From Plantibacter sp. VKM Ac-2880 (GTDB taxonomy: Bacteria > Actinomycetota > Actinomycetes > Actinomycetales > Microbacteriaceae), in NCBI RefSeq assembly GCF_015351235.1, contig NZ_JADKSJ010000001.1, positions 2,249,668 to 2,313,667 on the forward strand: a stretch of 64,000 nt of DNA. The letters run 5' to 3'. Positions within the stretch are counted from its first letter, which is position 1, and each line of letters starts with the position of its first letter. The translations under genes and the position numbers were made by a program. The notes beneath the pieces were generated by a model, which saw only the letters and a program-made list of their open reading frames with translations, was not told the origin of the DNA and ran no database searches. Positions 39,206 through 50,203 of the stretch are shown here, one piece after another.

Positions 39206-42200
39206 ATGGCGCATGCACCGTACGCTTCGTTCAGCGCAGTCCCGCCCAAGCAGGGCATGTACGACCCGGCGAACGAGAAGGACGCCTGCGGTCTCGCGAT
39301 GGTGGCGACCCTGACGGGCGACGCCTCGCACAGCATCATCGACGCGGCCCTCGGCTCGCTCCGGAACCTGGAGCACCGAGGTGCGATCGGTTCTGACGCG
39401 GGCACCGGTGACGGCGCCGGCATCCTCACCCAGATGCCCGATGAGTTCCTGCGCGGCGTCGCCGGGTTCGAACTCCCGCCCCTCGGCGAGTACGCCGTGG
39501 GGATCGCCTTCCTGCCCACCGACGACTCGGCACGAGCGCTCCTCCAGTCCCAGATCGCCGCGATCGCCGCCGACGAGCAGCTCACGGTGCTCGGCTGGCG
39601 TGAGGTCCCGGTCGACCCCGACGAACTGGGCAAGCTCGCGCGCGCCGCCATGCCCGCCTTCGAGCAGCTGTTCGTCACCGGTTCGGACCCCTCGAAGCCG
39701 TCCGGGATCGCACTCGACCGCCTCGCTTTCCGGCTGCGGAAACGCGCGGAGCGCGAACTCGGTGCGTACTTCATCTCCCTCTCGAGCCGGACCCTCGTCT
39801 ACAAGGGCATGGTCACCACCCTGCAGCTCGAACCCTTCTACCCGGATCTCTCCGACGAACGGTTCGCGACCAAGCTCGCCATCGTGCACTCCCGGTACTC
39901 CACCAACACGTTCCCGTCGTGGCCGCTCGCGCAGCCCCTGCGGATGATGGCGCACAACGGCGAGATCAACACGGTGGAGGGCAACCGCAACTGGATGCGC
40001 GCCCGTCAGTCGCAGCTCGAGTCCGAACTCATCGGCGACGTCCGGCCGCTGCTCCCCATCATCACGCCTGGCGCGAGCGACTCCGCGTCCTTCGACGAGG
40101 TGCTCGAGCTGCTGACGCTGACGGGTCGGTCGCTGCCGCACGCGATGATGATGATGGTGCCCGAGGCCTGGGAGAAGCAGACCGGTCTCTCGCAGCAGCG
40201 GCGCGACTTCTACGAGTTCAACTCCATGCAGATGGAACCGTGGGACGGTCCGGCCGCCCTCACCTTCACCGACGGCTCGCTCGTGGGCGCCACGCTCGAC
40301 CGTAACGGGCTGCGCCCGGGACGCTGGCTGGAGACCACCGACGGTCTCGTCGTCCTCGGCAGTGAGATCGGCGTGCTCGACATCGAACCGAGTCGGGTGA
40401 AGCGCAAGGGCCGTCTGCGCCCGGGCAAGATGTTCCTCGTCGACACCGTCGCAGGACGCATCATCGAGGACGACGAGATCAAGGATGAGCTGTCCGCCTC
40501 CGCCCCCTGGGGTGAGTGGCTCGAGCAGGGCCGGATCAACCTCAGCGACCTCCCCGAGCGTGAGCACATCGTGCACACGCCCGCCTCGGTGACCCGCCGT
40601 CAGCGGACGTTCGGGTACACGGAGGAGGAGGTGCGCATCCTCCTCCAGCCGATGGGCCAGAACGGCGCGGAGCCGCTCGGGGCGATGGGCTCCGACACGC
40701 CGATCGCCGTGCTCTCGGATCGCCCACGGCTCCTGTTCGACTACTTCGTGCAGCAGTTCGCGCAGGTGACGAACCCGCCGCTCGACTCCATCCGCGAGGA
40801 GGTCGTCACCTCACTGAAGCTCGGCCTCGGACCGGAGCGCAACCTCCTCTCCTGGGGTCCGGAGCATGCGAAGCAGGTCGTGCTCGACTTCCCCGTCATC
40901 GACAACGACGAGCTCGCGAAGATCCAGCACATCGACCCGACCCCCGGGAGCCCGCTGACGGCCACGGTGCGGGCGCTGTACCGGGTCGAGGACGGAGCTG
41001 CAGGCCTCGAGTCGAGGCTCCGTGAGATGTGCGCCGAGGTCGACGAGGCGATCCTCGCGGGCTCGGAGTTCATCGTGCTCAGCGATCGCGACTCGAACTC
41101 CGATCTCGCCCCGATCCCGTCGCTGCTGTCTCTCGCCGCGGTCCACCACCACCTCATCCGCGCCGAGAACCGGATGAAGGTCGGGCTCGTCGTCGAAGCC
41201 GGCGACGTCCGCGAGGTGCACCACGTCGCTTTGCTGATCGGATACGGCGCATCGGCGATCAACCCGTACCTGGCGATGGAGAGCTGCGAGGACCTCGTCC
41301 GCAGCGGTCTCATCCAGGGTGTCACGCGCGAGCAGGCCGTGAAGAACGTGATCAAGGCGCTCGGCAAGGGCGTTCTGAAGATCATGTCCAAGATGGGCAT
41401 TTCGACCGTCTCCTCGTATGCGGGCGCACAGGCGTTCGAAGCGGTCGGCCTGAGCGAGCAGCTCGTCGAGACCTACTTCACCGGCACCGAGACGAAGCTC
41501 GGCGGTGTCGGCATCGACGTGATCGCCGAGGAGAACGCGAAGCGTCACCGTTACGCCTACCCGGAGGACGCCGCGTCGACCGCGCACGAACGCTTGCAGT
41601 CCGGTGGCGAGTACCAGTGGCGCCGCGACGGCTCACCGCACCTCTTCAACCCGGAGACCGTCTTCAAGCTCCAGCACGCCACGAAGACCCGCCGGTACGA
41701 CATCTTCCGTGAGTACACGCACCTGGTCGACTCGCAGGCTGCGCAGCTCATGACGCTCCGAGGGATGTTCACCCTCCGCACCGGCGCCCGTCCGCCGGTC
41801 CCGCTCGACGAGGTGGAGTCTGTCTCCTCGATCGTCAAGCGGTTCTCGACCGGGGCGATGAGCTACGGCTCGATCTCGAGAGAGGCCCACGAGACGCTGG
41901 CGATCGCCATGAACAGCATCGGCGCGAAGTCGAACACCGGCGAGGGCGGCGAAGACGTCGATCGTCTGCTGGATCCGACACGACGCAGTGCGATCAAGCA
42001 GGTCGCGTCGGGCCGGTTCGGCGTGACGAGCATGTACCTGACGCACGCCGACGACATCCAGATCAAGCTCGCCCAGGGCGCCAAGCCCGGCGAGGGTGGG
42101 CAGCTGCCGCCGACGAAGGTCTACCCGTGGGTGGCCAGGACCCGGCACGCGACGGCCGGTGTCGGCTTGATCTCGCCGCCGCCGCACCACGACATCTACT

Positions 42201-48899: not shown

Positions 48900-49172
48900 T
48901 CAGTTCGCGTCGTCGGCCGAGGTCGCGCCGTCCGTGAGGAACGGTCCGGGCTCGTCGCCGGGCTGACCCGGGAGTGAACCGACGAGTCGGTCGAGTTCGG
49001 CAGCGTCGACGTCGATGCCCTGGTCGCTGAGACGGTCCGCCAGCGCTGCCCGGACGTCGAGGTCGGGGGTGAGGGACCGGTCTGCTGCGACCTGGACGAG
49101 GATGCCCTGGAGGCGGTCGTCGGTGCTGGCGTCGTGCACGTCCTGGCGGGGGTCGTTCTGCTCTGCAGTCAT
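48900..49172 (-). CDS. small acidic protein, unknown function
   Basis: 90 aa from ATG 49172 (95 aa from ATG 49187). It is polar, Asp/Gln-rich and predicted helical, with no membrane segment or recognised domain. It abuts the convergent histidine phosphatase stop with no gap, and lies downstream of the tRNA-Leu array on the same strand, so it could be partly read from that promoter. A minus-strand TAGCGT near 49225 may be its own -10. I do not recognise the family; coding is supported only by codon pattern and context. Confidence 0.55.
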   Translation of the reverse strand: MTAEQNDPRQDVHDASTDDRLQGILVQVAADRSLTPDLDVRAALADRLSDQGIDVDAAELDRLVGSLPGQPGDEPGPFLTDGATSADDAN

Positions 49173-49293
49173 GGAGTCGGGTCCCATCGTGTCGGACGAC
49201 GTCCTGCACGTCGTGTCTTCGACGTTACGCTACGGCGTCCGCCGACCCCGCCCGAAGGGCTTGACCGCCTCGTCCTGGGTCGTTCAGGGGAGC

Positions 49294-49505
49294 TTCGTGG
49301 TACCGGTGGTGGGACTCGAACCCACACGTCTTTCGACAAAGCACGTTGAGTGCGCCCGACGGGGATTCCCCACGTTCGTGGTACCGGTGGTGGGACTCGA
49401 ACCCACACGTCTTTCGACAAAGCACGTTGAGTGCGCCCGACGGGGATTCCCCACGTTCGTGGTACCGGTGGTGGGACTCGAACCCACACGTCTTTCGACA
49501 AAGCA
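49294..49505 (-). repeat. 81-bp tandem array of tRNA-Leu 3' halves
   Basis: TTCGTGGTACC occurs at 49294, 49375 and 49456, an exact 81-bp period. Units 49294-49374 and 49375-49455 are identical. The third copy is the 3' end of the real tRNA-Leu and shares 50 bp (49456-49505). Read on the minus strand, each partial unit contains an anticodon-like stem-loop (GCAC-TCAAC-GTGC), the variable arm, the T arm (GTGGG/CCCAC), the acceptor 3' strand and CCA, but lacks the acceptor 5' strand and D arm, which are replaced by a short GGGGAATCCCC hairpin. It resembles the E. coli tyrT/rtT repeats in layout. It is not CRISPR: there are no variable spacers. Confidence 0.9.
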
Positions 49506-49543
49506 TTTTGAGTGCTCCGCGTCTGCCATTCCGCCACACCGGC
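49460..49543 (-). tRNA. tRNA-Leu (anticodon CAA)
   Basis: 84 nt with encoded CCA. The acceptor stem GCCGGTG pairs with CACCGGT (one G-U), the anticodon stem GAGCA/TGCTT holds the loop CTCAAAA with CAA, a long variable arm (GTC-GAAA-GAC) is typical of class II Leu tRNA, and the T arm is GTGGG-TTCGAGT-CCCAC. Reads UUG. Direct tandem copies of its 3' half follow downstream. A minus-strand TACTCT about 34 nt upstream is the likely -10. Confidence 0.95.
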
Positions 49544-49576
49544 GCGTCCGCCGCACGGCGAACAGCAACCTGCATC

Positions 49577-49582
49577 AGAGTA
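49577..49582 (-). promoter_or_regulatory. -10 hexamer of tRNA-Leu
   Basis: TACTCT on the minus strand is 34 nt before the tRNA 5' end. It is three bp from the divergent pdtaR -10, so the two promoters overlap. Confidence 0.4.
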
Positions 49583-49585
49583 CCG

Positions 49586-49591
49586 TAGGAT
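49586..49591 (+). promoter_or_regulatory. leaderless -10 of pdtaR
   Basis: TAGGAT ends six nt before GTG 49598. There is no Shine-Dalgarno. Confidence 0.5.
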
Positions 49592-49597
49592 TTGAGG

Positions 49598-50203
49598 GTG
49601 ACCGAGCAAGAGACCCCTCCCGTAGCCCCGCGGCGCGTCGTCGTCGCTGAGGACGAATCCCTCATCCGCCTCGACATCGTCGAGATCCTTCGCGACAACG
49701 GTTTCGAGGTCGTCGGCGAGGCCGGCGATGGCGAGACCGCCGTCGCGCTCGCGACCGAGCTCCGCCCGGACCTCGTGATCATGGATGTGAAGATGCCCCA
49801 GCTCGACGGCATCTCCGCCGCCGAGCGCATCGGCAAGGCGCACATCGCACCGGTGGTGCTCCTCACCGCGTTCAGCCAGAAGGAACTGGTCGAGCGGGCG
49901 AGCGAGGCCGGTGCCCTGGCGTATGTCGTGAAGCCGTTCACCCCGAACGACCTCCTGCCCGCGATCGAGATCGCCCTCTCGCGGTACCAGCAGATCATCA
50001 CGCTCGAGGCCGAGGTCGCCGACATGGTCGAGCGCTTCGAGACGCGGAAGCTCGTCGACCGCGCGAAGGGCCTCCTCAACGAGAAGATGGGACTCACCGA
50101 GCCCGAAGCCTTCCGTTGGATCCAGAAGGCGTCCATGGACCGCCGCCTCACCATGCACGATGTCGCGCAGGCGATCATCGAGCAGTTGAGCGCCAAGAAG
50201 TAG
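49598..50203 (+). CDS. pdtaR: ANTAR response regulator (PdtaR-like)
   Basis: 201 aa from GTG 49598; TTG 49592 is in frame but lies inside the promoter gap. A receiver domain (about 12-128) has the acidic pair E18/D19, phospho-acceptor D63 in LVIMDVKMPQLDG, and the VVKPF Lys near 113. The C-terminal ANTAR RNA-binding helices (about 138-197) contain VDRAKGLLNEKMGLTEPEAF. Phosphorylated ANTAR proteins bind tandem hairpins and prevent termination. The matching kinase (PdtaS) is not in the window. It lies between pyk and polA, as in M. tuberculosis (Rv1626). Confidence 0.93.
   Translation: MTEQETPPVAPRRVVVAEDESLIRLDIVEILRDNGFEVVGEAGDGETAVALATELRPDLVIMDVKMPQLDGISAAERIGKAHIAPVVLLTAFSQKELVERASEAGALAYVVKPFTPNDLLPAIEIALSRYQQIITLEAEVADMVERFETRKLVDRAKGLLNEKMGLTEPEAFRWIQKASMDRRLTMHDVAQAIIEQLSAKK

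Follow-up and report, generated by a model that had tools for sequence, protein, structure and literature searches.

Tandem arrays of tRNA 3' parts behind tRNA-Leu(CAA) and tRNA-Arg(UCU) genes in Plantibacter and related Microbacteriaceae

To our knowledge, the classic array of transfer RNA (tRNA) 3' ends is the tyrT locus of Escherichia coli and Salmonella, the purpose of which has stayed unclear. In the E. coli K-12 tyrV locus, read here as a control, each 178-bp repeat closes with the final 19 nt of tRNA-Tyr, and rttR and tpr are annotated. A 175-bp variable-number tandem repeat lies at the rtT RNA in Salmonella, so copy number varies there also (PMC2658671, in excerpt). tRNA 3' ends also serve integrating phages, and an excerpt of PMC10865867 gives tRNA-Leu(CAA) as attB-11 of the mycobacteriophages Omega, with a 44-bp core, and Gaia. 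Here, we describe an array of tRNA-Leu(CAA) 3' parts in Plantibacter sp. VKM Ac-2880 (genome G000), found in a 64,000-nucleotide stretch of contig NZ_JADKSJ010000001.1 (positions 2,249,668 to 2,313,667; hereafter the window). The array is real and recurrent: several species have it at the same position. Its tRNA-Arg(UCU) counterpart evolves in concert with the tRNA.

The Leu array consists of the following features:

49463..49543, minus strand: intact tRNA-Leu(CAA) gene with an 81-nt body, A37 at 49507 (ARAGORN, 49460-49543; Rfam RF00005 (tRNA), 49543-49463, 55.9 bits)
49382..49462, minus strand: Leu unit 1, with spacer 49435-49462 and tRNA-Leu 3' part 49382-49434, C37 at 49426 and G38 at 49425 (81-bp exact repeat)
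49301..49381, minus strand: Leu unit 2, a copy identical to unit 1, with spacer 49354-49381 and C37 at 49345 (81-bp exact repeat)
49294..49300, minus strand: 7-nt CCACGAA tail, which recurs behind the tRNA and behind each unit (sequence and repeat comparison)

The three direct repeats are spaced at 81 and 81 bp; the two partial copies are 100% identical to each other and share 80% identity over 81 nt with the tRNA copy. In gene direction, each unit opens with a 28-nt spacer, followed by a tRNA 3' part which starts GCACTCAA in the anticodon stem-loop, takes in the variable arm and T arm, and ends with the discriminator base. In this species, the anticodon loop of the unit departs from that of the tRNA at two bases (AAAA to AACG), and a 50-nt match begins from there. 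The original prediction, an 81-bp tandem array with two identical partial units behind tRNA-Leu(CAA), thus holds in coordinates and description. Its 50-bp core is real and identical, but 43 nt of it are tRNA body and 7 (CCACGAA) lie past the discriminator base, where the CCA counted as part of the tRNA end reads CCG in four of seven Plantibacter genomes. Neither ARAGORN nor the Rfam tRNA model called the units as tRNA.

A search of relatives for the same array, proposed with the original prediction, found tRNA-Leu(CAA) at the same place and with identical sequence in all seven Plantibacter genomes, and whole units behind it in five of them (0-2 copies). G000 has two units, G004 has two and a truncated third, and G001, G003, and G006 have one each, while G005 retains a truncated unit and G002 none. 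Because the 81-bp repeat is exact and whole units stand at the same place in five genomes, the repeat is beyond chance; nor is it an assembly artefact, since G004, a single 4.08-Mb contig, carries the same array. The flanks (~89% identity over 4.5 kb upstream) separate clade 1 (G000 and G002) from clade 2 (the other five). Between the clades, 19-22 of 29 alignment columns of the spacers are identical and the 3' part is unchanged. As units occur in both clades, the array predates their split or moved between them, and units have been lost since. Of 398 Microbacteriaceae genomes, 5 contained a tandem Leu-type T-arm pattern, and each of these is a Plantibacter. The GGGGAATCCCC hairpin and extra anticodon-stem pair that had been pointed out are present in the window but species-specific: whole units of relatives have GGGAAAGCCC or GAGAAAGCCC in place of the hairpin, and an anticodon stem GCAC...ATGC. 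Read by eye, the truncated unit of G005 abuts the leader of the next gene, and the stretch which separates the two in the other six genomes is absent; the missing stretch may hold a promoter.

Arrays of the same build lie behind tRNA-Arg(UCU). A pattern with C37 found them in 25 of the 398 Microbacteriaceae genomes and 8 of 85 genera, and G046, of a ninth genus, has an Arg unit which this pattern missed. Units are 62-94 bp long across the nine genera, with up to seven in a row (range 0 to 7). At the Arg loci read, which leave out two places (G324:C65 and G315:C45), the tRNA immediately precedes the units, except where a contig end or masked stretch opens the locus and in G311, whose tRNA is split by a prophage. 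In an order-level sample of 396 genomes, a pattern with any base except A at position 37 matched the window genome only.

Four positions of the tRNA-Arg 3' part (59, 60, 68, and 73) are variable among 20 array genomes, and at these sites the first unit agrees with the tRNA of its own genome in 80 of 80 comparisons. This agreement was reached in none of 20,000 permutations and, when each of 8 genera was represented by a single genome, in 12 of 40,320. Over positions 38-73, 31 of 38 Arg units are identical to their own tRNA. Since the units track each genome's own tRNA, it would seem that tRNA-Arg templates them, or that both are exchanged together.

We consider it probable, if far from assured, that the arrays are rtT-like tRNA trailers which arose by local duplication and are kept identical to the tRNA by recombination, that is, by concerted evolution. 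The 3' part of tRNA-Leu(CAA) and a short spacer would have been duplicated beside the gene, a step which probably predates the separation of the Plantibacter species, and recombination among the copies would then expand, contract, and homogenise the array. The observed basis for this second step is the copy number of 0-2, the truncated remnants, and the identity of units within a genome. The intact tRNA would act as the template which holds the 3' parts of the units identical, a role that the tracking supports for Arg(UCU) and that is only extended to Leu, because the seven genomes do not differ in tRNA-Leu. Transcription probably carries on from the tRNA into the array as its 3' trailer, since there is no terminator-like site between the two; promoter and terminator patterns alike were absent from window positions 48900-49700. 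At the Arg array, some constraint may act in addition, as the hexamer TCGCGG before the block and C37 recur across genera without being templated by the tRNA.

Several observations weigh against this explanation. The 5' part of the Leu unit cannot be recognised as a decayed tRNA 5' half (352-1259 of 2,000 shuffles were as good for the 7 spacers), which leaves the origin of the first duplication unexplained. Seven of the 38 Arg units differ from their own tRNA within 38-73, and with only four variable tRNA-Arg positions there is little room in the tracking test. The absence of a terminator is weak evidence of co-transcription, and the retention of C37 by 50 of 50 Arg units is not accounted for by simple homogenisation. 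A decayed full tRNA copy found no clear support as the source of the spacers: shuffling gave no significance for the seven Leu spacers and mixed results for Arg, where 6-24 of 1,000 shuffles were as good in 8 of 26 genomes and at least 41 in the other 18. The position of terminators was also set aside as evidence of co-transcription: although at 19 of 20 loci the hairpins that follow an Arg array exceed those inside it in strength, values of like size come from array-free loci. Transcription of the units as a tRNA trailer is plausible.

Whether such a trailer would be processed into small RNAs which act as decoys or regulators, as in the rtT reading of the original prediction, is a separate matter. 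The architecture is apt, being that of E. coli rttR, and the T arm is retained in the units. In addition, the hexamer TCGCGG stands just before the Arg block in 20 of 26 genomes, including at least one in each of the nine genera, while the rest of the spacer mostly differs between genera; it is lacking in four of five g36 genomes, G372, and G172. Neither TCGCGG nor the C37 of all 50 Arg units can be templated by the tRNA. On the other side, the folding check proposed for the 81-nt unit gave no support, the Leu unit of the window being no more stable than shuffles (z-score 0.19). The unit RNAs of this test together gave z-scores of -0.64 to 0.96, a second set of 34 units had a mean of 0.22, and the unit alignment contained no covariation, on which grounds a conserved RNA structure was rejected. 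Presence is patchy, with zero copies in close relatives, and the Rfam RtT model had no match in the array at the gathering threshold or at E up to 10. A structured regulatory RNA is without support, and nothing speaks for the processed RNA, mimic, or sponge of the rtT reading, while its architecture stands; we regard functional small RNAs as distinctly unlikely. The spacer part alone had a mean z-score of -0.95 (34 units), with GGCACC-type tRNA ends pairing with GGTGC in many genera; this value was not relied on, as GGCA was put before every spacer, which is wrong for G404, G315, and G046 (tRNA ending in G), and the pairing is absent in Plantibacter units.

An integrative-element origin would make the units attR-like remnants, left after deletion of elements which used the tRNA 3' end as attB and then amplified in tandem. 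Like the common cores of phages, the repeated block does extend between the anticodon loop and the 3' end, the tRNA is the attB-11 site of Omega and Gaia mentioned above, an attP for tRNA-Arg is annotated in Rhodococcus phage Mbo4, and additional Ser, Arg, Pro, and Leu 3'-end copies occur kilobases from the tRNA in some relatives. No integrase was found by Pfam among the ten ORFs (open reading frames) flanking the Leu array in the window, so the earlier claim of none nearby holds for these ten, and at these ORFs and the Arg loci read no adjacent element, and none ending in a unit, was seen apart from the G311 prophage inside the tRNA. Identity to the tRNA is also broken within the anticodon loop, with C37 in 50 of 50 Arg units and in six of seven whole Leu units. 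The boundaries at the T loop and anticodon loop fit integrase action but fail at C37, and were rejected as proof of it. Repeated deletions, moreover, would hardly yield 62-94-bp units in nine genera.

In the array-bearing genome G311, tRNA-Arg(UCU) contains a 17.3-kb prophage (L294, G311:C1:1006500-1026499, the element at about 1006798-1024064) with a Phage_integrase gene near its right end, a 15-bp core common to both ends, and a tRNA-Arg(UCU) gene of its own; the host tRNA is not restored at the left end. The element is probably a case in Microbacteriaceae of the tRNA-dependent lysogeny described in the excerpt of PMC10865867. This prophage, which speaks for the use of the tRNA as an attachment site, entered the tRNA itself and neither of the two C37 units, which are intact. 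Among viral contigs, the exact A37 Arg block occurs in 18; 16 of these show a whole tRNA gene, and the other two, which share one sequence, look attP-like. The two exact C37 Arg patterns occur in none. The absence of these exact C37 patterns from viral contigs and the G311 prophage in the tRNA argue that the units are not like simple phage scars. The exact 31-nt core of the Leu array was likewise found in no viral contig. Phages and plasmids were rejected as carriers of the Leu array, as phages gave only tRNA-length matches and the one three-piece plasmid match was a single 84-bp place. A plain integrase scar fits poorly, the scar reading in the original prediction is weakened accordingly, and we hold it unlikely.

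Of all leads, the recurring A-to-C change stands out as the most interesting. Counted from the 3' end, the first mismatch of the Arg units is A37 to C in 31 of 38, and the remaining seven have further differences closer to that end. C37 occurs in all 50 Arg units under a script permitting any base at this position, and none of the 398 family genomes has an Arg unit with A, G, or T at 37 placed 10-40 nt behind the tRNA-Arg end, a geometry which with C37 detects 24 of the 26 array genomes on the Arg loci. In Leu units, the first mismatch is A37 in three genomes and position 38, then 37, in G000, while the unit of G006 keeps A37, as tRNA-driven conversion would give. The six Pro units of Plantibacter all have A58 changed to C (CAAAT to CACAT). 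Ser units keep A58 and fall outside the pattern. The coincidence at positions 37 and 58 is unexplained and draws on three cases, a small number, compared after seeing the data.

We take A37 of tRNA-Leu(CAA) and tRNA-Arg(UCU) to be targets of 2-methylthio-N6-isopentenyladenosine (ms2i6A) and N6-threonylcarbamoyladenosine (t6A) modification, and positions 37 and 58 presumably belong to the two loops in which crossover by tyrosine integrases takes place. One conceivable origin is that a mature tRNA was reverse-transcribed from its 3' end, with an A-to-C error at the modified adenosine and truncation at the 5' end, and that the copy recombined beside the gene. It would account for C at the adenosines named in the Arg, Leu, and Pro units. 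In the actinobacterial relative Mycobacterium tuberculosis, both positions are modified, with 1-methyladenosine at 58 (m1A58) made by TrmI and genes for ms2i6A and t6A present (PMC10531406, in excerpt). Against such a cDNA stand the A58 of Ser units, the A37 of the G006 unit, and the E. coli repeats, which by eye lack the change; a single ancestral mutation per family also explains the sharing. In addition, t6A usually does not block reverse transcription. We consider this origin highly improbable. A broader version has Microbacteriaceae keep short, selected arrays of tRNA 3' halves in which the A-to-C change is key, the units being either reverse-transcribed modified tRNAs or one-mismatch attB decoys which spare the tRNA from phage integration. 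The G311 prophage core, TAATCTCTTGGTCGC, differs from the Arg units just at base 37, but we think this version quite improbable.

Beyond Leu(CAA), the window genome has copies of a tRNA's own 3' end downstream of Arg(UCU) (three 62-bp units), Pro(CGG) (two ~100-bp units, each including a terminator-like hairpin), and Ser(UGA) (one unit), making four of the 48 tRNA genes which ARAGORN finds in the scanned stretches. In Plantibacter, Arg units occur in 7/7 genomes (the Arg locus of G003 ends at a contig end and that of G002 has masked bases), Pro units in 5/7, and Ser units in 2/7. In two other genera, G172 (42 of 54 tRNAs scanned) and G423 (37 of 45), only Arg(UCU) has an array; G338 has none in 10 of 45 tRNAs scanned, a set which leaves its Arg gene outside. 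Behind the Arg and Pro arrays of Plantibacter are palindromic repeats of the CCCTTCGACAAGCTCAGGGACC type, sometimes many consecutively (L093-L098 and L123-L129). Beside the tRNA-Ser(UGA) gene of G077, seven extra tRNA-Ser(UGA) 3' ends are dispersed over 127 kb (G077:C5:16280-143432), as would be expected from serial integration of elements.

The Leu array has these neighbours in the window:

48900..49187, minus strand: next same-strand ORF downstream, 95 aa, without a Pfam family at E 1e-5
49592..50203, plus strand: divergent neighbour, a response regulator with an ANTAR domain

The 60 bp upstream of tRNA-Leu (window 49544-49603) extend into the beginning of the ANTAR regulator gene; they do not differ among the seven Plantibacter genomes and may hold two overlapping promoters. 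At 39394-39487, ARAGORN calls a tRNA whose anticodon has four bases and whose type is unknown; it has no Rfam call and is probably a false positive.

With this architecture at four tRNA loci of one genus, and at Arg(UCU) in nine genera of one family, a comparative system is at hand in which to test how such arrays originate, whether by recombination, integrase, or reverse transcription, and what role, if any, the trailers have. A further lesson is that a partial tRNA copy need not be the sign of a genomic island. Among the titles listed from the open-licence literature, there is no description of such arrays from actinobacteria, which does not prove that they are absent from print.

The array resembles three known systems. 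With the attR sites of phages and islands, such as that of Omega at tRNA-Leu(CAA), it shares a block from the anticodon loop to the tRNA 3' end (PMC10865867 and PMC9897764, both in excerpt), but it has no adjoining element, a tandem 81-bp period, an internal C37 difference, and the same place in several species. Tandem tRNA duplications and pseudogenes have in common with it a period of tRNA length (81) and concerted evolution, but no 5' half could be recognised in the Leu unit and the unit is not called as a tRNA. With tyrT-tyrV (rttR/rtT, tpr) of E. coli K-12 MG1655 it shares tandem units right behind the tRNA, each ending in the exact tRNA 3' end. The tRNA is a different one, the E. coli period is 178 bp with a 19-nt tRNA piece against 81 bp and a 43-nt piece of the tRNA body in the Leu array, and the Plantibacter array has neither an RtT match nor a kept ORF such as tpr. 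A 94-aa ORF (49284-49568, minus strand) does span the Leu repeats, but its frame needs the 81-nt period, which is 82 in G004 and G003, and a protein encoded by the repeats was rejected for this reason. The Plantibacter array is thus of the same kind as the E. coli tyrT repeats and belongs to a different family.
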